38,101 nt of DNA from Sporichthya brevicatena (GTDB lineage Bacteria > Actinomycetota > Actinomycetes > Sporichthyales > Sporichthyaceae). Location of the stretch: contig NZ_BAAAHE010000012.1 in assembly GCF_039525035.1 (NCBI RefSeq), positions 10,228 through 48,328 of the forward strand, written 5' to 3'. Position 1 is the first letter of the stretch. Every line of letters begins with the position of its first letter. The position numbers and the translations under genes were made by a program. Below are positions 17,591 through 37,986 of this stretch, in pieces. Under the pieces are notes generated by a model. That model was not told the origin of the DNA. It was given only the letters and a program-made list of their open reading frames with translations, and searched no databases.

Positions 17591-17620
17591 GGGCTCTCTC
17601 GCCGCCCGGGTGCCGCGTAC

Positions 17621-17800
17621 TCCCGAAAGCGCACTCCAGCACCCCAATCGCCCGATCCACAGTGCTTTCGTCTCCCGAAAGCGCACTCCAGCACCCCAAT
17701 CGCCGGATCCACAGTGCTTTCGTCTCCCGAAAGCGCACTCCAGCACCCCAATCGCCGGATCCACAGTGCTTTCGTCTCCCGAAAGCGCACTCCAGCACCC
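17621..17800. repeat. 52-bp tandem repeat, cluster 1 (four copies)
   Basis: Copies begin at 17621, 17673, 17725 and 17777 with an exact 52-base period; the last is cut short after about 24 bases. Each starts TCCCGAAAGCGCACTCCAGC and ends near ATCCACAGTGCTTTCGTC. The copies are almost identical. Each junction holds the hairpin GCTTTCG-tctcc-CGAAAGC (for example 17664-17682). Because 52 is not a multiple of 3 and the copies are interrupted in no frame-preserving way, this is not coding. Positions 17801-17965, between the clusters, are unrelated GC-rich sequence without a recognisable gene. Confidence 0.9.
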
Positions 17801-17965
17801 TGCGCACCCCGGCGCCGTGTGCTCACCTGCCCCCACTGCGCAGATCAGCACCGGCCGGCGCGCAGCCAGCCGGGCCCATCTGCGCACTCAGCGCACCTCG
17901 GCACTCGCCCCGCCGGAACTCGCCGCGGCCCAGAGCACATCCTCGCCGCGCCGGCACTCCTCTCT

Positions 17966-18248
17966 CCCGAAAGCGCACTCCAACACCCCAATCGCCCGAT
18001 CCACGGTGCCGCGCTCTCCCGAAAGCGCACCCCAGCACCCCGAACGCCCGACCCACAGTGCCGCGCTCTCCCGAAAGCGCACCCCAGCACCCCGAACGCC
18101 CGACCCACAGTGCCGCCCCCTCCCGAAAGCGCACCCCAGCACCCCGAACGCCCGACCCACAGTGCCGCGCTCTCCCGAAAGCGCACTCCAGCACCCCAAT
18201 CGCCCGACCCACGGTGCCGCGCTCTCCCGAAAGCGCACTCCACCACCC
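17966..18248. repeat. 52-bp tandem repeat, cluster 2 (six copies)
   Basis: Copies begin at 17966, 18018, 18070, 18121, 18173 and 18225; the period is 52 except one 51-base step. The three central copies share a variant (GCACCCCAGCACCCCGAACG) while the outer ones resemble cluster 1 in their first half. The 3' half is changed from AGTGCTTTCGTC to AGTGCCGCGCTC or GGTGCCGCGCTC, which removes the junction hairpin of cluster 1. Both clusters end in the same CACCCTGCGCACC flank, which suggests one arose from the other. The array ends about 50 bases before the 3' end of the PD40 gene. Confidence 0.9.
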
Positions 18249-25788: not shown

Positions 25789-27366
25789 GTGATCTCGTTC
25801 GGGGCCCTGCGGCCGCCCGCCACCGCCGTCCTCGCGTGCCTCGGGAGCGTCGCCCTCGCGTCGACCGCCCTCGGCCCGGCCGTCCCCGCGGCGCAGGCGC
25901 GCAGCAGTGAGCCGGCGGCGGTGACGGCGACGAGCGCGTTCAAACCCCGGCCGATCACGTGGGGCAGATGCGCCTCGGGCTCACTGCAGGCCGGCGGGGC
26001 CCAGTGCGGTTTCCTGACCGTGCCGCTGGACTACGCGAAGCCCGACGGGCGCACGATCCAGGTCGCGGTCTCGCGCGTGAAGGCGACCGCGCCGAAGAAG
26101 AAGCGGCAGGGCGTCCTGATCGCGAACCCGGGCGGCCCCGGCGGCTCCGGGCTCGGGCTCAGCACCTACCTCGCCGGTGCGCTGCCGCCGGGCGTCGCGT
26201 CCACCTACGACCTGCTCGGGTTCGACCCCCGCGGAGTCGGTCGCAGCAAGCCGGCGATCTCGTGCCAACCGAGCTACGCCCGTGGCCCGCGGCCGGCTTA
26301 CGAGCCGATGTTGGGTCAGCTCCCCGTCCAGAGCCCGAACGAGACGGCCTGGCTGGAGCGGTCGAAGCGCTACGCGGCGGCCTGCGCGGCCAAGCACGGC
26401 GGGGTGCTGCCCCACCTGCCGACACTGAACACCGTCCGGGACCTCGAGATCCTGCGCCGGGCGCTCAAGGTCAAGAAGATCAACTACTACGGCTTCTCCT
26501 ACGGCACCTACCTCGGCCAGGTCTACGCGACGCTGTACCCGAAGAAAGTCCGGCGCATGGTCTGGGACGGCGTCGTCGACCCGGCGGAGGTCTGGTACCG
26601 CGGGCAGCTCAACCAGGACCGCGCGTTCGAGGATGCGATCGCCGAGTTCTGGACGTGGGTCGCCCGGCACCACAAGATTTACCGACTCGGCGAGACCGCG
26701 AAGGCCGTCGAGGACCGCTTCTACTCGGAGCAGGCGAAGCTCGCGGCCAACCCCGACGGCGAACTCGGACCGGCGGAGTTCAACGACGTCTTCGTCGGCG
26801 CCGCGTACTACCAGGGCGGGTGGCCGGAGGTGGCGTCCGCCTTCTCCGCCTACGCCGGCGGCAACGGGGCCCTGATGAAGGCGCTCTACCGCGAGTCGGC
26901 GTCGGGCGGGGACAACGGCTACGCGACGTACCTCGCCGTCCAGTGCATCGACGCGGCCTGGCCGGCGGACTACGCCACCTGGCGGGAGGACGCGTTCGCC
27001 ACCGCGCGCTCCGCGCGGTTCCTGACGTGGAACAACGTCTGGTACAACACGCCCTGCCTGTACTGGCCCGCCCCGGCCGGCCGTCCGGTGACGGTCGACG
27101 GCAGCCGCGCACCCAAGGTGCTGCTGGTCAACACCACCCTCGACGGCGCGACGCCGTACGCCGGGGCGCTCGAGGCCCGGCGGCTCTTCCGGCGCGCGGT
27201 GCTCGTCGCCGAGGTCGGCAACAGCACCCACGCGAACACCCTCAACGGCAACCGCTGCGTCGACCGCGCGGTGTTCCGGTACCTGCGCGACGGGACCCTG
27301 CCGACCCGCAAATCGGGCACCGGCGCCGATGTCACCTGCGCCCGTTCGCCGCACCCGCAGCCCTGA
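25789..27366 (+). CDS. secreted S33/TAP-type alpha/beta hydrolase (copy A)
   Basis: Exported tripeptidyl-aminopeptidase-like hydrolase of 525 residues. A signal peptide covers about residues 1-37 (VLACLGSVALASTALGPAVP). The mature enzyme starts with CGFLTVPLDYAKPDG, then the oxyanion loop NPGGPGGSGLG (near 113) and DLLGFDPRGVGRSKP. The catalytic triad is Ser237 (GFSYG), Asp452 (TTLDGATPYAG) and His481 (NSTHAN). Conserved Cys pairs (73, 159, 199, and later ones) suggest disulphides. Such enzymes release tripeptides or amino acids from peptide N-termini outside the cell. GTG 25789 lies seven bases after a TAGGCT box. Four paralogues lie from 31.3 kb on; this copy lacks the C-terminal extension of copies C-E. 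Confidence 0.9.
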   Translation: MISFGALRPPATAVLACLGSVALASTALGPAVPAAQARSSEPAAVTATSAFKPRPITWGRCASGSLQAGGAQCGFLTVPLDYAKPDGRTIQVAVSRVKATAPKKKRQGVLIANPGGPGGSGLGLSTYLAGALPPGVASTYDLLGFDPRGVGRSKPAISCQPSYARGPRPAYEPMLGQLPVQSPNETAWLERSKRYAAACAAKHGGVLPHLPTLNTVRDLEILRRALKVKKINYYGFSYGTYLGQVYATLYPKKVRRMVWDGVVDPAEVWYRGQLNQDRAFEDAIAEFWTWVARHHKIYRLGETAKAVEDRFYSEQAKLAANPDGELGPAEFNDVFVGAAYYQGGWPEVASAFSAYAGGNGALMKALYRESASGGDNGYATYLAVQCIDAAWPADYATWREDAFATARSARFLTWNNVWYNTPCLYWPAPAGRPVTVDGSRAPKVLLVNTTLDGATPYAGALEARRLFRRAVLVAEVGNSTHANTLNGNRCVDRAVFRYLRDGTLPTRKSGTGADVTCARSPHPQP

Positions 27367-27528: not shown

Positions 27529-27615
27529 GTTCCCCGCGGGCCGCTTAGACGTCCCCCTCCCCCGGTCGGTTCCGGCTTTCGCGACTTTGCCCATTCCTGA
27601 CGTGCATTCGTCACA

Positions 27616-27662
27616 GCGGGTGTCGTGAGACCCGCAGCGCCAAACGGCTTCCTGAGCGTTTG
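27616..27662 (+). promoter_or_regulatory. structured leader RNA upstream of the surface-protein cluster
   Basis: Two consecutive hairpins in the presumed 5' leader. Hairpin 1: GCGG (27616-27619), two bulged bases, GTC, a GTGA (GNRA-type) loop at 27625-27628, then GAC and CCGC (to 27635). Hairpin 2: CAAACG (27641-27646) with CGTTTG (27657-27662). A small third stem CTCGA-tg-TCGAG follows near 27675. The first gene starts at 27741 behind GGGGGGAA. It does not fit the c-di-GMP riboswitch core by eye; no known class was recognised. Confidence 0.35.
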
Positions 27663-27740
27663 CTGGACGGCAATCTCGATGTCGAGCGGTCGAGCGAACG
27701 GCCGCCGCCAACACCGAAAATCCCTGGGGGGAACTCGCTC

Positions 27741-28178
27741 ATGCGCATCACCAAGAAGCTCGCCGGCGCCGTTGCTGTCTCCGCTGTCGTCGCCCTCGGC
27801 GCCGGGACCGCGTTCGCGTACTGGACCAGCAGTGGCACCGGGGCCGGGACGGGCTCGGTCGGCACCAACGTGGCGTTCCAGGTCGCGGGCGACCTGACCA
27901 CGCCGCTCGTCCTCGACGCCGAGCAGAGCTGGACGGTCACCGTCACCAACCCGGCGTCGTTCGCGCAGACCCTCAGCACCCTGACTGTCGACTTCGAGCC
28001 GTCGGACGCCGACTGCAACAAGGCCTGGTTCACGCTCACGCAGCCGACCGTCTCGCCGATCGACATCGCCGCCGGCGCCAGCCAGGGCTACACGGCGAAG
28101 CTCGTGCTCAACAACGAGGCCGTCAACCAGGACGCTTGCAAGAACAACTCGATCGACTTCACCTACACCGCGGGCTGA
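27741..28178 (+). CDS. exported surface protein 1, AFA-YW signal end
   Basis: Exported protein of 145 residues of a family I do not know by name. The signal peptide MRITKKLAGAVAVSAVVALG ends in GTAFA, giving a mature protein starting YWTSSGTGAGTGSVG. This resembles the SipW/TasA-type signal peptides (short hydrophobic core, aromatic and Ser/Thr start), which is inference. The mature domain is a predicted beta sandwich (SWTVTVTNPASFAQTLSTLT) with two Cys and a conserved end AVNQDACKNNSIDFTYTAG. The next gene carries the same end, [12 protein letters not shown] 27741 has GGGGGGAA eight bases upstream. It is first in a four-gene cluster and followed by a strong hairpin, so it may be made in excess over the others. 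Confidence 0.75.
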   Translation: MRITKKLAGAVAVSAVVALGAGTAFAYWTSSGTGAGTGSVGTNVAFQVAGDLTTPLVLDAEQSWTVTVTNPASFAQTLSTLTVDFEPSDADCNKAWFTLTQPTVSPIDIAAGASQGYTAKLVLNNEAVNQDACKNNSIDFTYTAG

Positions 28179-28183
28179 TCACC

Positions 28184-28221
28184 CGGTGGTGGCGGGTTCA
28201 GGGGTGAGCCCGCCACCACCG
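28184..28221 (+). terminator. 16-bp hairpin after surface protein gene 1
   Basis: Positions 28184-28199 pair with 28206-28221 over 16 bases with one G.U pair and a 6-base loop (AGGGGT). It begins five bases after the stop codon and has no T run. As the next three genes lack an obvious promoter in the 44 bases that remain, it may act as a partial terminator that lowers their expression. Confidence 0.65.
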
Positions 28222-28265
28222 CCAGTTCTCAGGGACGTTGAAGCAGTTGCGGTGGGGGGACCACG

Positions 28266-28961
28266 TTGACAGCCAGCAGTAGGCGCGACGCGCGAGCGTT
28301 GCGCACGGCGGCACTCGCCCTGGGGGCGGGCGCTGTCGTCCTCGGCGGAGCCGGGGCGGCGAACGCCGCACCGGGCGACGCGTTCACGATCAGCGGCACG
28401 CTCGACAGCACGCTGTACCCGGGTGGGTCCGGCGCGCTGGACCTGAGCCTGACCAACGTCGGTACGACGGAACTGACGGTGGGTGAGATCACCGTGCGCG
28501 TCGCCGGCGTCACCACCCGCTCCGCGGCGCCGTGCCTGACCTCCGACTTCGTCGTCGACCAGCAGCTCGACCCGACGCGGGAGTTCACGCTGCCCGCCGG
28601 GGCGACGCGCACGCTGACCGAGCTCGGCATCGCGCCGGCCGACCTGCCGCGCGTCTCGATGACCAACACCGCCGTGAACCAGGACGGCTGCAAGAACTCG
28701 ACGGTGAACCTCGCCTTCGCCGGCCGGGCCGCCGAGGTCGGCGGGGTCTCCGTCCCGCCGAACCCGACGCCCACCCCGCCGGCCGAGACGCCGGTCGCGA
28801 CCCCGGCGCCGGACGACGACCAGGTCGTCGGCGGCGTCAACCTTCCCGGCACCGGTGGGGACCCGATGACGTTCTGGACCGCGCTGGCCGGCCTCGGCCT
28901 CGTCGCCCTCGGCGGCGGTTCGGTCGTGCTGACCCGTCGCACCAAGGGGGCCGTGCGATGA
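28266..28961 (+). CDS. exported LPGTG sortase-anchored surface protein 2
   Basis: Cell-wall protein of 231 residues. The signal peptide runs to about residue 34 ([20 protein letters not shown], cut at NAA). A beta domain related to surface protein 1 follows: [20 protein letters not shown], and the shared [16 protein letters not shown] with two Cys. A Pro/Thr linker ([17 protein letters not shown]) leads to the sortase signal LPGTG (about residues 195-199), a hydrophobic helix [20 protein letters not shown] and an RR-containing tail. Sortase would cut and link it to peptidoglycan. The TTG start at 28266 lies five bases after GGGGGGA. The stop overlaps the next start (ATGA), showing coupling. 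No sortase gene is in the window. Confidence 0.82.
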
Positions 28962-29440
28962 CGCGCCTCCGCATCCGGGCGGGCCGCACCGCGGTCGTCG
29001 CCGCCGTCACCGCCGGCGCCCTGCTCTCGACCGGCACCGCCTTCGCCTACTGGAAGGCCACCGGCTCCGGCTCCGGCACCGCGAAGGTGGGCGTCGGTCA
29101 GACCATCCGCGCCAACGCGGTCACCCCCGCCACCGGCCTGCTCTTCCCGAGCACGACGCCCAACGGCAGCCTGGCGCTGACGTTCACCACCCCGGTGAAC
29201 GCACTCGTCACCGGCATCGCCAAGGACCCCGCCCGTCCGGTGATCAGCAGCGTCACCGGTTGCGGAGCCTTCCTGGACATGCCGGCCGTCACCGGGCTCA
29301 GCATCGCCGTCACGGCCCCGGGACCGTCGCCGGTGACGACCCTGCCGAACCGGGTCCGTCTGCTGATGGACACCCCGGCGAACTGCCAGGGCGCCACCTT
29401 CACGATCCCCGTCGTGCTGACCACGCAGGAGACGCCGTGA
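28958..29440 (+). CDS. exported surface protein 3, AFA-YW signal end
   Basis: Exported protein of 160 residues. The signal peptide [20 protein letters not shown] continues to TGTAFA, and the mature chain begins [15 protein letters not shown], the same boundary and Gly/Ser-rich start as in proteins 1 and 4. The body is beta-rich: [40 protein letters not shown] and the end [20 protein letters not shown], with two Cys at places that match the Cys pair of protein 1. No anchor or membrane segment follows, so it should be secreted or held by other subunits. The ATG at 28958 and the GTG of the next gene both overlap neighbouring stops by four bases. Function unknown. Confidence 0.75.
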
Positions 29441-30228
29441 ACCGCCGCTCCCTCGTCGTCGCGGGCGTCGCCGCGACGGTCGTCCTCGGCACCGTCGCCC
29501 CGGCGTTCGCCTACTGGACCCTGACCTCCCACCCCGAGTCGACGGGAGGGGCCGCCGCGGGCACACTCGCCGCTCCGGTCGTCCAGGTCGACCGCACCGG
29601 CCAGGGCTCGAACATCAAGGTGCACTTCCGGATCGTGTCCGTGCCGGGCCAGCTGCCGACGACGTTCAGCGTCTCCCGCCAGGGCAACAGCGGCGGGTAC
29701 GCCCCGCTCGACGGCTGCATGGACGTGCCGGTCACCGAGACCTGCACGTCGACCGACAGCGCGAACAACGGCAACCAGCACTACCGGATCTTCGCCACGG
29801 CCGGGACGTACTGGAAGTCCTCGGACGCCATCTGCGACTTCCAGAACTCGCAGGACGTCCTCGCCAACACGTCCGTGAACTGCTCCGTGTTCACCTACGT
29901 GCCGCCCGCCGCGCCGGTCGCGCCGCGGATGGCCGGCCCCGCCGCCGCGGAAGACCTCTCGACCCCGGCACCCACCCCCACGCCGGAGCCCAGCCCGACC
30001 CCGAGCCCAACCCCGAGCCCGACCCCGAGCCCGACCCCCACGCCGACGCCGACCCCGACGCCGGAGCCGACGCCCACCCCGACCCCGACCCCGACGCCGG
30101 AGCTCTCCCCTGGGGCTCCGTCGACGCCGGTCGTGGAACCGGAACCCCCGGTGGCGGCCCCGGCGGAGGAGTCCGTGGCCGGCACGGAGCCGGAGGTCGC
30201 ACCGGAGGATCCGCCGACCGCAGGCTGA
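29437..30228 (+). CDS. exported surface protein 4, AFA-YW signal end and Pro-Thr tail
   Basis: Exported protein of 263 residues. The signal peptide ends VAPAFA before [18 protein letters not shown] fibronectin/Ig-like beta domain follows ([40 protein letters not shown]) with four Cys (about residues 94, 102, 133, 149). From about 178 the chain is low-complexity [13 protein letters not shown] type, some 45 residues of Pro alternating with Thr, Ser or Glu, then an acidic end [13 protein letters not shown]. Such tails usually span the cell wall, yet no LPxTG or membrane helix is present. The start GTG 29437 overlaps the stop of gene 3. It closes the cluster and is followed by the long hairpin at 30260. 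Confidence 0.75.
29971..30102 (+). repeat. Pro-Thr coding microsatellite
   Basis: A run of CCNACN/CCNAGC codons (mostly CCGACC, CCGAGC) encoding alternating Pro and Thr/Ser/Glu in surface protein 4. The 6- and 12-base periods make it prone to slippage in steps that keep the frame, so its length may differ between strains. Confidence 0.7.
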
Positions 30229-30259
30229 GTTCTCAGCTGACTGCGCGGCAGATCACACC

Positions 30260-30305
30260 CCGCCCGGGCGGGTGGACCGAACAATCGGTTCGCCCGCCCG
30301 GGCGG
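30260..30305. terminator. 21-bp hairpin between surface cluster and rarD
   Basis: Positions 30260-30280 pair with 30285-30305 over 21 bases with two G.U-type mismatches and a 4-base loop ACAA. The stem includes the GC block CCGCCCGGGCGG on each side. It follows surface protein 4 by 31 bases and ends eight bases before the rarD -10 box, so it can insulate the two units. No T run. Confidence 0.7.
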
Positions 30306-31298: not shown

Positions 31299-32840
31299 AT
31301 GAGCCGCCGCGCCGCGTTCGTCACCGTCCCGCTGCTCGCGCTCGTCGCCACCGGGCTGGCGGTGCCGGGCCCGGCCGACGCCGAACCGGCTCCGGCGGCG
31401 GACGCCACCGTGGCCGCGGCGCCGTCGATCTCCTGGAAGCGGTGCGGCCAGGCGCGGCTGCGGGCGGTCGGGGCGCAGTGCGGCATGCTCGCCGTCCCGC
31501 TGAACCACGCGGACCCGGGCGGCCGACACATCAAGATCGCGGTGTCGCGGATCCGCGCCACCGCGCCGACGTCGAAACGTCAGGGCCCGCTGCTGGTGAA
31601 CCCGGGCGGGCCGGGTGGGCGCGGGCTGCACTGGTCGGCGTACCTCTACCGCGACCTGCCGCGCTCGGTGCGCAGCACCTACGACATCGTCGGCTTCGAC
31701 CCCCGCGGGGTCGGCGCGAGTTCACCGTCGCTGCGGTGCAAGGCGAACTACGCCAAGGGGCCGCGCCCGGCGTACCGGCCGTCGTCCGGTCCGGCGAAGC
31801 CGCCGAGCGCGAACGAGCGGAAGTGGCTGACGCGGTCGAAGTCGTACGCCCAGGCGTGCGCCGACCGGTACCCCAATCTGCTCCCGTTCCTGCGGACCGA
31901 GGACGTCGCCCGTGACCTCGACCTGCTCCGGCGGGCCCTGGGTGCCGAGCGCATCAACTACTACGGCTTCTCCTACGGGACCTACCTCGGCCAGGTCTAC
32001 GCGACGCTGTTCCCGGCCCGCACGCGGCGGCTGGTCTTCGACGGCGTCGTCGACCCGCGCAACGTCTGGTACGCCGGCCAGCTCGCCCAGGACCGGGCGT
32101 TCGAGAAGGCGATGAACCGCTTCTGGGCTTGGGTGGCGAAGAACCACCGCACGTACCGGCTCGGGTCGACGACGAAGCAGGTCCGCACGCGGTACTACCG
32201 CGAGGAGCGCGCGCTGACGCGACGTCAGAAGGGTCCGATCGGGCCGGCCGAGTGGAACGACGTCTTCCTCACCGCCGGGTACTCGCAGTACACCTGGCGG
32301 GCGATCGCGAGCGCGTGGGCGTCCTGGGAACGCGGGAGCACGGCGGCGATCCGCTCCCGCTACGCCAACGACATCGCCGACTTCGACAACGGCTACGGCA
32401 TGTATCTCGCCGTCCAGTGCACCGACGTCGCGTGGCCGAAGGACTACGCGCGCTGGCGCCGCGACGCCTTCGCGACTGCGAAGAAGGCGAAGTTCGAGAC
32501 CTGGGGCAACGTCTGGTTCAACGCGCCCTGCCTGTACTGGAAGGCCCCGGCCGGGGTGCCGGTCTCGATCGACGGCTCGCGGACGCCGTCGCTGCTCATC
32601 GTCTCCACGACGCTCGACGGCGCGACGCCGTTCTCCGGCGCGCTGTACGCGCGGCGGCAGTTCCCGCGCTCCGCGCTCGTCGCGCAGGTCGGGAGCACCA
32701 CCCACTCGGACAGCCTCAACGGCAACGACTGCGTCGACCGCCGCGTGATCCGCTACCTGCGGGACGGGACGCTCCCCCGCCGGACCAGCGGGTCCGGGGC
32801 CGACGTCCGTTGCTCCCGGACGCCGCTCCCCCGGGCGTGA
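31299..32840 (+). CDS. secreted S33/TAP-type alpha/beta hydrolase (copy B)
   Basis: Exported hydrolase of 513 residues. The signal peptide is MSRRAAFVTVPLLALVATGL with a cut near PADA (about 29). The triad is Ser225 (GFSYG), Asp440 (TTLDGATPFSG) and His469 (STTHSD). The oxyanion loop reads NPGGPGGRGLHW; Arg replaces the Ser that copies A, C, D and E have. It is closest to copy A: both keep NYYGFSYGTYLGQVYATLYP-like helices and end directly after the last domain (CSRTPLPRA). Secreted peptidase activity on peptide N-termini is expected. The ATG at 31299 lies eight bases after GAGACT. Its stop overlaps a GTG that opens a 29-codon remnant (32837-32926). Confidence 0.9.
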   Translation: MSRRAAFVTVPLLALVATGLAVPGPADAEPAPAADATVAAAPSISWKRCGQARLRAVGAQCGMLAVPLNHADPGGRHIKIAVSRIRATAPTSKRQGPLLVNPGGPGGRGLHWSAYLYRDLPRSVRSTYDIVGFDPRGVGASSPSLRCKANYAKGPRPAYRPSSGPAKPPSANERKWLTRSKSYAQACADRYPNLLPFLRTEDVARDLDLLRRALGAERINYYGFSYGTYLGQVYATLFPARTRRLVFDGVVDPRNVWYAGQLAQDRAFEKAMNRFWAWVAKNHRTYRLGSTTKQVRTRYYREERALTRRQKGPIGPAEWNDVFLTAGYSQYTWRAIASAWASWERGSTAAIRSRYANDIADFDNGYGMYLAVQCTDVAWPKDYARWRRDAFATAKKAKFETWGNVWFNAPCLYWKAPAGVPVSIDGSRTPSLLIVSTTLDGATPFSGALYARRQFPRSALVAQVGSTTHSDSLNGNDCVDRRVIRYLRDGTLPRRTSGSGADVRCSRTPLPRA

Positions 32841-32926: not shown

Positions 32927-32991
32927 CCAGCACTTCGACGGGTTGTCCACAGTTTTCGGTCATGTCCCGGACCGCTCCAAGGTGCCGCATT

Positions 32992-32997
32992 TAGGAT
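32992..32997 (+). promoter_or_regulatory. candidate -10 box of hydrolase C
   Basis: TAGGAT lies 44 bases before the GTG at 33042, leaving a leader of about 38 bases with a GAGGTGG ribosome binding site. A sequence TTGTCCACA (32943-32951), identical to the GC-rich actinobacterial DnaA box, lies upstream; a single copy is probably chance. Confidence 0.35.
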
Positions 32998-33041
32998 GCG
33001 TCAATCCCGGCCCCCGGTCCGGGCTAGCGAGGTGGTTGCCC

Positions 33042-34676
33042 GTGCGGGCTCTGGTGGCGGTCGCGACCGCCGGGATGGTCGCCGTCAGCGGCGCGGCCGC
33101 GCTCGGCGTGGCCACCTCCCCGGCCGCCCGCGCCGACGCCACCGGCGTGGCCCGCCCCGCCGCCGCGATCACCTGGGGAGCCTGCGAGTCGGCCGCGCTG
33201 ACCGGCGTCGGCGCCGAGTGCGGATTCGTCCCGGTGCCCCTGGACTGGTCGAAGCCCGCCGGCCAGAAGATCGAGATCGCGGTCTCCCGCCTGCGGGCCA
33301 CGGAGAAGCGCCAGGGCGTCCTGCTGATCAACCCCGGCGGGCCCGGCGGCTCCGGCCTGGAGTTCCCGGCGATCTACCCCGAGCGGGTGCCCGACGGCGT
33401 CGGCCGGCAGTACGACTGGATCGGTTTCGACCCCCGCGGTGTCGGGGCGAGCAAGCCTGCCGTCTCCTGCGACGCGTCCTTCTTCAAGGGACCGCGCCCG
33501 GCCTACGAGCCCGCCGACCTGACGAAGGTCACCGGCAACGAGGCGGCCTGGGTCGCCCGGACGAAGAAGTACGCGCAGGCGTGCGCCGACCAGAACGGCG
33601 AGATCCTCTCCCACCTGCGCTCGATGGACACCGTGCGCGACATGGACGCGATCCGGCAGGCGCTCGGCGAGCAGCAGATCAACTACTACGGCATCTCCTA
33701 CGGCACCTTCCTCGGGCAGGCGTACGCGTCGACGTTCCCGGAACGGGTCCGCCGGATGGTGCTCGACAGCAACGTCGCGCCGGACTACCCCGGCTACGGC
33801 GACGCGGGCCGCGGGCAGATCGAGGGCTTCGAGTACACGGCCGGTGAGTTCTTCGCCTGGATCGCCGCGCACGCGGTCCAGTTCAACCTCGGCACGACGG
33901 CGGAGGCGGTCACCGAGGCCTACTACGCACGGTTGGCCGACCTGCGGAAGTCTCCGGTCGGCACCATCGGGTCGGCCGAGTGGCAGGACGTCTTCCTCGT
34001 CGCCGGCTACGCGGAGAGCCTGTGGCCGACGCTCGCCGACGGGTGGGCGCTGTGGGAGACCGGCGACCACTCCCGCATGGAGTTCCTCTACGACGTGCTC
34101 TCCGGCGTCGGCGACGACAACATGTTCGCGGCGTTCAACGCCACGCTGTGCACCGACGGCCACTGGCCGCGCAACTACACGAAGATGCGCAACGACGCGA
34201 TCGGCCTCGCGAAGGAGTTCCGCTTCGGCACCTGGGGCAGCTTCTGGTTCTCCGGGCCGTGTGCGTTCTGGCCGGTCAAGTCCGCGAAGCCGCCGGTGGT
34301 CGACGGGTCGAAGATCTCCGTCCCGATCCTGCTGCTCAACGCCACCCGGGACGCGCCGACGCCCTTCGCCAACGCCCTGAGGGTCCGTCAGGAGTTCCCG
34401 ACCTCGGTCCTGATCTCCGACGTCGGCGGCATGACGCACGGCGTCGGCCTCAACGGCAATGCGTGCGTCACCGCGTACGTCACCGACTACCTGCGCGACG
34501 GGACGCTCCCGGCGCGCGCGGCGGGCGAGGGTCCGGACGCCGAGTGCGCCCGCAAGCCGCTGCCCGAGCCGTCACTGCTGTTCCGGGGCCAGGCCGCGGG
34601 GGCCTTCTTCGACGGGTTCGCGCCGGAGCCGTTCAACACCTTGCTCCTCCAGATCCCGGTGGCGCACCGCCGATGA
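33042..34676 (+). CDS. secreted S33/TAP-type alpha/beta hydrolase (copy C)
   Basis: Exported hydrolase of 544 residues. The signal peptide (ALVAVATAGMVAVSGAAALG) ends near ARADA, about residue 32. The triad is Ser219 (GISYG), Asp437 (ATRDAPTPFAN) and His466 (GMTHGVG); the Asp lies in RDAPTP where the other copies have LDGATP. The oxyanion loop NPGGPGGSGLEF is standard. It shares with copy E a changed middle region (GYGDAGRGQIEGFEY, DDNMFAAFNATLCTDGHWP) and a C-terminal extension of about 35 residues (EPSLLFRGQ to PVAHRR). The GTG at 33042 has GAGGTGG six bases upstream; a TTG at 32943 is in frame but would precede the likely promoter. Substrate range probably differs from A, B and D. Confidence 0.9.
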   Translation: MRALVAVATAGMVAVSGAAALGVATSPAARADATGVARPAAAITWGACESAALTGVGAECGFVPVPLDWSKPAGQKIEIAVSRLRATEKRQGVLLINPGGPGGSGLEFPAIYPERVPDGVGRQYDWIGFDPRGVGASKPAVSCDASFFKGPRPAYEPADLTKVTGNEAAWVARTKKYAQACADQNGEILSHLRSMDTVRDMDAIRQALGEQQINYYGISYGTFLGQAYASTFPERVRRMVLDSNVAPDYPGYGDAGRGQIEGFEYTAGEFFAWIAAHAVQFNLGTTAEAVTEAYYARLADLRKSPVGTIGSAEWQDVFLVAGYAESLWPTLADGWALWETGDHSRMEFLYDVLSGVGDDNMFAAFNATLCTDGHWPRNYTKMRNDAIGLAKEFRFGTWGSFWFSGPCAFWPVKSAKPPVVDGSKISVPILLLNATRDAPTPFANALRVRQEFPTSVLISDVGGMTHGVGLNGNACVTAYVTDYLRDGTLPARAAGEGPDAECARKPLPEPSLLFRGQAAGAFFDGFAPEPFNTLLLQIPVAHRR

Positions 34677-34713
34677 CGCCACCGGAGCTGAGGACCAGTC
34701 ACAGGGGGTCGCT

Positions 34714-36363
34714 ATGAAGCGCACGGTCGTTCCCGGCGTCGCCGGGGCGGCCGGGGTGGTCGGTGCGTCACTGATCGCACTGCTGCCGGTCGGGACCGCG
34801 GGGGCGAGCGAGGCGGCGCCGGCCGCCGCCGGCGCCGGCAAGCTCGACTGGGTCAGCTGCGAGCAGTTGGGCATGGGCGGCCGCGCCACCGAGTGCGGCT
34901 ACCTGACGGTGCCGATGGACTGGTCGAAGCCGAACGGCAAGAAGATCAAGCTCGCGGTGTCGCGGACCAAGTCGCGCGTCCCGGCGGCGAAGTACCAGGG
35001 CGTCATGCTCGTGAACCCCGGCGGCCCCGGCGGCTCCGGCCTCGCCTACTCCGGCCTCAAGGACCTGCTGCCCAACCGCAGTGGCGAGGCCTACGACTGG
35101 ATCGGCTTCGACCCCCGCGGGGTCGGCGACTCGCAGCCGGCGTTGTCCTGCGTCAGCAACTACGCCGAGGGCAAGCGCCCGCCGTACGTGCCCGCGAAGG
35201 CCGGCAAGACCACGACGGCGAGTGAGAAGGCGTGGCTGAAGCGCTCGAAGCGGTACGCCGAGGCGTGCGGCAAGAAGCACGGTGAACTGCTGGAGCACAT
35301 GCGCACCGTCGACACGGTGCGGGACATGGACGCGCTGCGTGCGGCGCTCGGCGCCGACAAGATCAACTACCTCGGGTTCTCCTACGGCACGTACCTCGGC
35401 CAGGTCTACGCGACGATGTACCCGGACCGGGTGCGCCGCATGATCTTCGACGGCAACGTGAACCCCAAGGGCATCTGGTACAGCTCGCAGCTCAACCAGA
35501 ACCGCGCGTTCGAGAAGGTCGCCGACCGGTTCTTCGCCTGGGTCGCCCGGAACAACTCGACCTACAAGCTCGGCACGACCGCCGACGCGGTGCGCAGCAA
35601 GTACCTCGGCGTCATCAAGGAGCTGCGCGACGTCCGGCACGACGGCATCGGTGCGAACGAGTTCACCGACGCCTTCGTCCGGGCGATGTACGCGGAGTCG
35701 TTGTGGGCCGACACGGCGCACGCGCTCGCGGCCTGGGTGCTGCGGCGCGACATCGGGCCGGCCAAGTCGGCGTTTCAGGCGTCACTGGACCCGGACGACA
35801 ACCTCTTCGCCGTCTACAACGCCGTGCAGTGCACGGACACCCCGTGGCCGACGGCGTACGCGACCTGGCGCAAGGACGCCTTTCAGGTCGCGAAGACGGC
35901 GCCGATCCTGACGTGGAGCAACGTCTGGTTCAACACACCCTGCCTGTACTGGCCGGCCAAGCCGGGGACGGCCGTGAAGATCGACGGCTCGAAGGCTCCG
36001 CCGATCCTCCTGCTGAACGCGACGCTCGACGGCGCCACCCCGTACGCCGGGGCGCTCGAGGTCCGCCGCCTGTTCCCGAAGGCCGTCCTGGTCGCCGAGA
36101 AGGACGCGACCACGCATTCCGGCGCGGTCCTCGGCGGGAACCCGTGCATCGACAAGCGGATCGCCGACTACCTGCTGACCGGCAAACTGCCGGCCCGTTC
36201 GGCCGGCGACGCCGCGGACGTCATGTGCCCCCGGGGCGCCGGCCCCGAGCCCGGGCTGCTGCCGTTCGACGTCGACTCGTCCCTGCCTGCCCCCGACCCC
36301 CAGCCCCGGGATCAGTCCCTGTTCGACAAGATCATCGGCCTTCTCCCGTCCCGCGCCAGCTGA
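34714..36363 (+). CDS. secreted S33/TAP-type alpha/beta hydrolase (copy D)
   Basis: Exported hydrolase of 549 residues. The signal peptide includes AGAAGVVGASLIALLPVG with a cut near GASEA (about 33). The triad is Ser223 (GFSYG), Asp439 (ATLDGATPYAG) and His468 (ATTHSGAV). The oxyanion loop is NPGGPGGSGLAY. It resembles A and B in the lid region (GIWYSSQLNQNRAFEKVADR) but, like C and E, has a C-terminal extension, here Pro-rich (PFDVDSSLPAPDPQPRDQ) with a short amphipathic end FDKIIGLLPSRAS. The ATG at 34714 is preceded by CAGGGGG. It lies 37 bases after copy C and 27 before copy E, so C-D-E are probably one transcript. Confidence 0.9.
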   Translation: MKRTVVPGVAGAAGVVGASLIALLPVGTAGASEAAPAAAGAGKLDWVSCEQLGMGGRATECGYLTVPMDWSKPNGKKIKLAVSRTKSRVPAAKYQGVMLVNPGGPGGSGLAYSGLKDLLPNRSGEAYDWIGFDPRGVGDSQPALSCVSNYAEGKRPPYVPAKAGKTTTASEKAWLKRSKRYAEACGKKHGELLEHMRTVDTVRDMDALRAALGADKINYLGFSYGTYLGQVYATMYPDRVRRMIFDGNVNPKGIWYSSQLNQNRAFEKVADRFFAWVARNNSTYKLGTTADAVRSKYLGVIKELRDVRHDGIGANEFTDAFVRAMYAESLWADTAHALAAWVLRRDIGPAKSAFQASLDPDDNLFAVYNAVQCTDTPWPTAYATWRKDAFQVAKTAPILTWSNVWFNTPCLYWPAKPGTAVKIDGSKAPPILLLNATLDGATPYAGALEVRRLFPKAVLVAEKDATTHSGAVLGGNPCIDKRIADYLLTGKLPARSAGDAADVMCPRGAGPEPGLLPFDVDSSLPAPDPQPRDQSLFDKIIGLLPSRAS

Positions 36364-36390: not shown

Positions 36391-37986
36391 ATGCGCACAT
36401 TCCTCGCCAGCCTCGCCGCCGGAAGCCTGGTCGCCGGTGTCGTCGCCGCCACGGCCGGCAATCCCGTCGCCTCCGCGGCGGAGACCATCAGTTGGTCCGC
36501 CTGCAGCGACGAGAGTCTCGCCGCCGCGAACGCCGAGTGCGGGTTCCTCTCCGTCCCGCTCGACTGGTCGAAGCCCAGCGGCGAGAAGATTCAGATCGCG
36601 GTCTCCCGCGTCAAGGCCACCGGCAAGTCGCAGGGCCCGATGCTGATCAACCCCGGCGGTCCCGGTGGTTCCGGTCTCGGCTTCTCCGCGTACCTCAAGC
36701 AGATGATGCCCGCGGAGGTCTCGGCCCAGTTCGACCTGATCGGCTTCGACCCCCGCGGCGTCGGGTCGAGCAAGCCCGCGCTGTCGTGCGTCAAGGACTA
36801 CGCCGCCGGCCCGCGCCCCGCCTACACCCCGGTCGAGTCGCGCAAGGCGGCGAACGAGGTGGCCTGGATCGAGCGCACCAAGGCGTACGCCGCCGCGTGC
36901 AAGGAGAAGAACGGCAAGCTGCTCGACCACGTCAAGACGATCGACACGATCAAGGACATGGACGCGCTGCGCGCGGCGCTCGGCGCGGAGAAGATCAACT
37001 TCTTCGGCTTCTCCTACGGCACGTTCCTCGGCCAGACCTACTCGACGCGGTACCCGAACCGCGTCGCGAAGATGGTCCTCGCCGGCATGGTCGACCCGCA
37101 CAACTACGGCGGTTACGCCGACGGCGGCAAGGCGCAGACCGAGGCCTTCCAGAAGGTGCTCGACATCTGGTTCGACTGGATCGCGCAGCGCAACTCGACC
37201 TACGGCCTCGGGTCCACCCGCGCCGAGGTGCTGAAGACGTATCAGGAGATGCGCGCCAAGCTGACCTCGGCGCCGGTCGGGACGATCGGCCCGTCCGAGC
37301 TCGCCGACGTGTTCTTCACCGGCGCCTACGCCGAGCAGCTCTGGGTGCCGATCACCGCCGCCGTCGCGGACGCGCACGAGGGCGACTTCTCGTTCCTCAC
37401 CCGCGTCTACGAGATCCTCGGCAGCCCGGCCGACGACAACGGGTACGCCGCGTTCAACGCGACCCTGTGCACCGACGGCAAGTTCCCGCGCAGCTACGAC
37501 CGCATCCGCAAGGACGCGTTCGCGCTCTCGAAGACCGCACCGGAGAGCACCTGGAGCAGCTTCTGGTTCTCCGCCCCCTGCACGTGGTGGCCGGCCAAGG
37601 CCGGCAAGGTCCCGCCGGTCGACGGGGCGAAGGTCTCGGTGCCGTTCCTGCTCGTGCAGCAGAGCCTCGACGGCGCGACCCCCTACGAGGGCGCGGAGTC
37701 GGTCAAGAAGGAGTTCCCGAGCTCGGCGATGGTTCTGGAGGTCGGCGCCACCACGCACGCGGCCGTCTACAGCGGCAACAAGTGCGTCGACGACGTCGTG
37801 ACCGCGTACCTGCTGAACGGCACGCTCCCGACCCGGGCCGCGGGCAACGGGGCGGACGTCAGCTGCGAGCGCACGCCGTTCCCCGAGCCCTCGGTCGTCA
37901 ACCGCTCCCTGCAGCAGGGTCAGCTGGGGTACTTCCTCGGCCTCCCGCCCGAGCTCGCCGCGATCGTCAACATGATCCCGCTGTAA
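36391..37986 (+). CDS. secreted S33/TAP-type alpha/beta hydrolase (copy E)
   Basis: Exported hydrolase of 531 residues. The signal peptide FLASLAAGSLVAGVVAATAG ends near ASAAE (about 30). The triad is Ser208 (GFSYG), Asp427 (QSLDGATPYEG) and His456 (ATTHAAVY). The oxyanion loop NPGGPGGSGLGF is standard. The middle domain (NYGGYADGGKAQTEAFQKVL, DDNGYAAFNATLCTDGKFP) is closest to copy C, and the C-terminal extension (EPSVVNRSLQQGQLGYFLGL) also follows the C type, ending in a hydrophobic IVNMIPL. ATG 36391 has AGAGG about eight bases upstream. Last gene in the window; 115 bases of non-coding sequence follow it. Confidence 0.9.
   Translation: MRTFLASLAAGSLVAGVVAATAGNPVASAAETISWSACSDESLAAANAECGFLSVPLDWSKPSGEKIQIAVSRVKATGKSQGPMLINPGGPGGSGLGFSAYLKQMMPAEVSAQFDLIGFDPRGVGSSKPALSCVKDYAAGPRPAYTPVESRKAANEVAWIERTKAYAAACKEKNGKLLDHVKTIDTIKDMDALRAALGAEKINFFGFSYGTFLGQTYSTRYPNRVAKMVLAGMVDPHNYGGYADGGKAQTEAFQKVLDIWFDWIAQRNSTYGLGSTRAEVLKTYQEMRAKLTSAPVGTIGPSELADVFFTGAYAEQLWVPITAAVADAHEGDFSFLTRVYEILGSPADDNGYAAFNATLCTDGKFPRSYDRIRKDAFALSKTAPESTWSSFWFSAPCTWWPAKAGKVPPVDGAKVSVPFLLVQQSLDGATPYEGAESVKKEFPSSAMVLEVGATTHAAVYSGNKCVDDVVTAYLLNGTLPTRAAGNGADVSCERTPFPEPSVVNRSLQQGQLGYFLGLPPELAAIVNMIPL

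Follow-up and report, generated by a model that had tools for sequence, protein, structure and literature searches.

A recurrent four-gene cluster of Sporichthya brevicatena that may encode a non-covalent donor-strand surface fibre

Introduction

Work on TasA-type fibres has centred on Firmicutes of the Bacillus group and on some archaea. Chaperone-usher pili, such as type 1 and P pili, are built from Ig-like subunits, with shaft, adaptor, tip, and base being ordered by donor-strand pairing. TasA subunits were reported to join via an N-terminal donor strand that completes the sandwich of the next subunit, and the N-terminus of TapA resembles the TasA donor strand (PMC9674648, PMC10151520). Secretion of BsaA in Clostridium perfringens (sipW-bsaABCRSD) was reported to require SipW, which is encoded in the operon (PMC7395162).

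The window analyzed in this study, i.e., the whole stretch of 38,101 nucleotides from Sporichthya brevicatena, harbors a cluster of four genes, P1 to P4, that shares features with each of these systems.

Results

The four genes and all features described within the cluster lie on the forward strand (+), and the reading frames are located where a preliminary description of the window had placed them. P1 (27741-28178) encodes 145 aa with a signal peptide ending in AFA|YW and a single Ig-like domain that closes with NQDACKN, and is the predicted major (shaft) subunit; its G/T-rich N-terminal segment YWTSSGTGAGTGSVGT (27819-27866) is the predicted donor strand and is of low confidence and unstructured in the AlphaFold2 model. 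Directly 3' of the P1 stop lies a GC-rich perfect hairpin with a 13-bp stem (28184-28221), in which a U tract is absent. P2 (28266-28961; 231 aa, TTG start), the predicted wall-anchored base, has an ordinary leader (..AANA|AP) and the P1 domain without the YW segment. P3 (28958-29440; 160 aa), a predicted adaptor, combines an AFA|YW signal with a P1-type N-terminal segment and a P1 domain ending in CQG, and P4 (29437-30228; 263 aa, GTG start), the predicted tip protein, has an AFA|YW signal, an FnIII-like domain, and a Pro/Thr-rich tail with Pro/Thr/Glu repeats (29960-30103). The overlaps of four bases each that had been noted between genes 2 to 4 read ATGA (P2/P3) and GTGA (P3/P4), and the AVNQDxCKN end ascribed to the first two proteins was recovered as AVNQDACKN in P1 and AVNQDGCKN in P2.

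Neither sigma-70 promoters nor U-tract terminators were found within the cluster. Reading the ORFs beside it pointed to ferredoxin oxidoreductase genes as neighbours, together with genes for aminopeptidase-type hydrolases and RarD. Five related alpha/beta hydrolases, which by eye belong to the tripeptidyl-aminopeptidase type, are encoded at window positions 25789-27366, 31299-32840, 32943-34676, 34459-36363, and 36391-37986, and the cluster together with rarD sits within this array. Elsewhere in the window (17620-18248), a 52-bp repeat forms two arrays of 3.5 and 5.5 copies, the units of which contain the near-inverted arms CGAAAGCGCACT and AGTGCTTTCG.

Each of P1, P3, and P4 closes its hydrophobic leader with AFA|YW, in agreement with the preliminary description. 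AFA is a canonical A-x-A site of signal peptidase I too, so that what sets these proteins apart is the pair of aromatic residues behind the cleavage site, the first of which hardly varies in P1 alignments. A motif search across the 5.2-Mb genome with the pattern GCNTWYGCNTWYTKS gave 10 matches, six of them encoding A-[FY]-A-[YF]-W: three belong to this cluster, a fourth to the P1 paralogue of contig 55, and the other two are no signal peptides, one lying inside a rhodanese-like frame and the other in a reading frame that runs antisense to a long ORF. In the whole genome, four genes carry the motif as a signal-peptide end, namely P1, P3, P4, and the P1 paralogue.

Profile comparison revealed that P1, P2, and P3 represent one Ig-like domain family (hhalign probabilities of 99.2, 96.1, and 99.2%) with two conserved cysteines, the C-terminal end being of the N-Q-D-x-C-K type in P1 and P2 and CQG in P3. 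P4 has its leader in common with P1, but a different domain. The common fold of all four chains, a point on which the preliminary description had let its assembly stand or fall, is thereby upheld by homology for P1 to P3 and does not extend to the domain of P4. For mature P1, AlphaFold2 with 15 sequences gave a beta-sandwich with a mean pLDDT of 86.8. Its N-terminus is loose (residues 6-14 below 50; averages of 43 and 61 for the first two ten-residue blocks), and the first strand starts at residue 21. The matches listed by Foldseek and VIA-align for this model are general Ig-like sandwiches (best Foldseek E-value 7e-3, Z below 8), with TasA absent among them, and sequence searches of the PDB with P1 gave nothing meaningful. 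For the N-terminal part of P4, the model was poor (pLDDT 57.8), the Foldseek matches listed being mostly fibronectin type III domains; relatives of P4 reach up to 1,153 aa and carry Laminin_G_3 (LamG/lectin-type) or other domains.

The set recurs, whole or in part, at more than 25 loci in Actinobacteria and in one Chloroflexi MAG, three times in this genome, where paralogues of P1 and P2 lie on contigs 7 and 55 in the same neighbourhood. As to gene order in relatives, which had been proposed as a check, the genes stay together across distant genomes. P1-P2-P3-P4 is the order in the window, on contig 55, in G001, in Pseudolysinimonas (L055), and in Aeromicrobium (L057); contig 7 and G003 show P1-P3-P4-P2 with an LPXTG motif, and G004 shows P1-P1-P2-P3-P4. 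Shorter versions are P1-P2-P4 (G047, Geodermatophilaceae L056, and the Chloroflexi MAG L058), P1-P3-P4 (Winogradskya L059 and L060), and the pair P1-P4, by itself in Arthrobacter agilis (L062) and with a membrane-anchored P2-like gene behind it in Actinophytocola (L061) and Actinokineospora (L063). A P1 profile matched 20 of 296 genomes of the phylum, about 13 of them strongly and over nearly the full length; a scan of genome contigs with the single P1 sequence gave nothing. The P2 profile searches used a three-row alignment. In a plasmid collection, one match was found, an unannotated one from Arthrobacter. No Pfam or NCBIfam family model matched P1 to P4 over its cut-off, and no published actinobacterial description of the set was found in the open-licence literature; the gene set is widespread and apparently undescribed. 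Three further loci (L108, L109, and L110) hold only the P3-type small subunit, and there the P4 N-terminus is partly like that of this subunit, with AW followed by GTG-rich and A-[RK]-A residues.

A stem of at least 10 bp follows P1 at 17 of 25 loci; other gene ends have one in 19 of 133 cases (14%; p = 1e-7), and 0.06 loci would be expected from dinucleotide shuffles. The hairpin sequences vary between loci, and the element could be an attenuator or a structure protecting the mRNA, either of which would favour P1. In comparison with G001 of the same genus, mature P1 showed 56% identity, the P1 signal peptide 96%, P2 89%, P3 88%, P4 82%, and the flanks 91-98%; mature P1 is therefore the fastest-diverging part, as would be expected of an exposed shaft protein.

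The N-terminal segments were scored over the 14 residues after the aromatic pair for their likeness to P1. The P3 segment is P1-type at 8/8 loci, ranking first within each protein. For P4, a P1-type segment was found at 10/11 loci without P3 and at 1/15 with P3 (p = 2e-5), a total that includes the first loci used to form the hypothesis (6/6 without and 0/9 with P3) and leaves out L108-L110, the test set for which the prediction had been written beforehand contributing 4/5 and 1/6 (p = 0.08), and both p-values are optimistic since the loci are related and not independent. L043 breaks this rule and L105 is borderline; L065 is no exception, as a P3 gene is present there. For the window itself, a donor segment shared between P4 and P1 was considered and rejected, the P4 segment not being P1-type; this P4 would instead fit P3.

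The LPGTG motif reported for P2 is present at residues 193-197 (28842-28856) and is followed by a hydrophobic segment (203-223) and the basic tail TRRTKGAVR, which together make up the anatomy of a sorting signal; scores with models of the sorting domain come close to the cut-off without reaching it (TIGR01167, 15.1 bits with a cut-off of 15.9). Most P2 relatives lack LPXTG. All eight P2 proteins inspected have either a sorting signal or a hydrophobic N-terminal (transmembrane) segment and consist of the P1 domain without the YW segment, none of them having a convincing P1-type segment (scores of at most 1.3 in seven and 4.5 in one), which makes the proposed role of the LPGTG protein as the base plausible. 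At some loci (Winogradskya, Arthrobacter agilis), the P2 gene is missing. No sorting signal was found in P1, P3, or P4. The genome encodes five sortases, none of them on the contig of the cluster, and the three for which a class was assigned comprise one class E and two class F enzymes; the class E sortase sought after the preliminary description is thus there, away from the cluster, no sortase adjoins the cluster, and class C is not represented among the three. In the P2-like proteins L061:6454-7074 and L063:8837-9376, a sorting-signal-like stretch (LAFTG or LAATG, a hydrophobic segment, and a basic run) is located at the N-terminus, not at the C-terminus.

None of the window proteins exceeded the gathering score of PF12389 (22.5 bits), P1 giving no match, or the cut-off of 19 for TIGR04088, the SipW-cognate signal, for which the contig-7 P4 paralogue reached 18.0 bits. 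The best PF12389 scores of P1 relatives were 17.3 and 18.9 bits, the latter, obtained with the contig-55 P1 paralogue, being the best single-stretch match in this genome. P1 of Pseudolysinimonas and Aeromicrobium aligns to PF12389 over about 90 residues from the N-terminus, and the P1 profile matches weakly genes less than 2 kb from SipW in G156, G167, G187, and G197. In a comparison with a small group of TasA-like proteins linked to SipW, P1 gave a probability of 78.6% across the leader and the L-x-PG region; this box follows the loose N-terminus in most P1 relatives, and window P1 has LVLD there. At the sequence level, the N-terminal half of P1 thus seems to have a remote kinship with TasA/camelysin, not membership of that family.

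One SipW-type peptidase exceeds the model cut-off in this genome. It is encoded on contig 68, outside the cluster, where its gene forms a row with two small genes for exported proteins (L046:3500-5396), the leaders of which end in TWA|AWQ (the one over the PF12389 cut-off) and AWG|AWH. A profile of this pair and two relatives had its top match in the PDB, a weak one, with the archaeal bundling protein AbpX. Near the SipW operon, L046:5724-6743 encodes an exported protein that contains the repeats NGLINVTDNNVHVPVQVCNNYVPVNVLGGQGSGE and by eye resembles chaplins.

Discussion

We propose, with a probability of roughly 0.5, that the cluster encodes a non-covalent donor-strand surface fibre with P1 as shaft, P2 as base, P3 as adaptor, and P4 as tip, a reading deduced from gene content and comparison. 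All four chains would be exported by the Sec pathway, and the cut at AFA|YW would leave P1, P3, and P4 with a free N-terminal segment that starts with Tyr-Trp, is rich in Gly/Thr in P1 and P3, and may act as a donor strand. Outside the membrane, strand exchange would then build a fibre in a defined subunit order, in principle like that of TasA. As P1 has both a putative donor and an Ig-like acceptor domain, it would be the repeating shaft subunit; P2, an acceptor without a donor that sortase or a membrane segment keeps in place, would be the base taking the first P1 donor; and P4, a donor without an acceptor domain, would form the end of the fibre. P3, with a P1-type donor and an acceptor of its own, could stand between P1 and P4 as an adaptor. 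The tip would carry FnIII together with extensions of the lectin/Ig or Pro/Thr kind, and owing to its hairpin, P1 would stay in excess over P2 to P4. What the sequences show is the gene order, the homology, the common segments, the hairpin, and the pattern of divergence; polymerization, subunit order, and an adhesive role are all inferred. It is conceivable, though we hold this part more tentatively, that the cluster represents a Gram-positive donor-strand pilus free of chaperone and usher, with its base, shaft, adaptor, and tip ordered by matching N-terminal segments, in which an ordinary signal peptidase can replace SipW.

Several other explanations have to be weighed against this fibre. That the four are independent Ig-like proteins, wall-bound or secreted (coat, S-layer-like, or polysaccharide-binding), and form no fibre is unlikely, yet deserves attention, since their domains look like ordinary Ig-like sandwiches, with a weak likeness to DUF11 surface repeats, and the P4 relatives bear lectin-type domains; the conserved gene order, the common leader segment, its lack in P2, and the P1 hairpin point instead to one assembly with unequal subunit numbers. 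A covalent pilus polymerized by sortase with P2 as the pilin would account for the LPGTG of P2 in a genome with five sortases, but we consider it very improbable, with three proteins devoid of sorting signals, no sortase adjoining the cluster, class C missing from the three enzymes classified, and LPXTG being absent from most P2 relatives.

The preliminary description leaned toward a dedicated SipW peptidase. In its strict form, a TasA/camelysin system would have the three YW proteins processed by the SipW-type peptidase of this genome and assembled into matrix fibres of the TasA type. The enzyme exists on contig 68, the leaders resemble the SipW-cognate model, with the contig-7 P4 paralogue just below its cut-off, P1 relatives match PF12389 weakly, and among 60 relatives SipW is enriched in cluster genomes (7/9 versus 14/51 others, p = 0.006). 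The dependence suggested by these 60 relatives was given up, since the association is gone in the 296 genomes of the phylum, where SipW exceeds the cut-off in about 4/13 cluster genomes and in 81/296 overall. Furthermore, G003 and G004, both about 100% complete and carrying the cluster, gave no SipW match, the genome of Arthrobacter agilis gave weak SipW matches below the cut-off only, the window proteins remain under the cut-offs of TIGR04088 and PF12389, and AFA is a normal A-x-A site. With SipW on another contig and cluster carriers lacking it, a dedicated peptidase is not supported, and we regard the strict TasA system as a rather improbable explanation.

If the donor-strand fibre proposed here is real, many Actinobacteria bear a TasA-related fibre with a recognizable base, shaft, adaptor, and tip, and without a Pfam or NCBIfam match in this analysis. 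It would account for a gene set lacking any family assignment and provide a system in which ordered self-assembly that needs neither chaperone nor usher can be readily tested. Roles in adhesion or biofilm formation would be suggested by the variable tips and their lectin-type domains.

In comparison with known systems, the cluster shares with chaperone-usher pili the Ig-like subunits and, as inferred here, an order of shaft, adaptor, tip, and base; it differs from them in its Gram-positive host and in that no chaperone or usher gene was seen beside it among the ORFs read. With the sortase-assembled pili of Gram-positive bacteria it has one LPXTG protein for wall attachment in common, whereas its presumed shaft subunit is without a sorting signal and a sortase is not adjacent. 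Like BsaA, it combines a secreted polymer-forming subunit (predicted in our case) with minor secreted partners in one operon, but SipW is not part of the cluster, and an organization into base, adaptor, and tip is not seen for BsaA in the available part of that report (PMC7395162). The Bacillus systems, TasA/TapA/SipW of Bacillus subtilis and TasA-CalY-CapP of Bacillus cereus, likewise have small exported subunits, beta-sandwiches whose N-terminus is loose once the signal has been cleaved off. Further likenesses are the L-x-PG box, present in most relatives, and partners with a common N-terminal segment (PMC9674648, PMC10151520, PMC13082335), as well as non-covalent assembly, which is proposed as the principle here. 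Unlike these systems, the cluster lacks SipW, which was not detected in several of its carriers, its mature subunits comprise about 119 aa with PF12389 below the cut-off, and it also encodes a predicted wall-anchored base and a predicted tip protein of the FnIII/lectin type.
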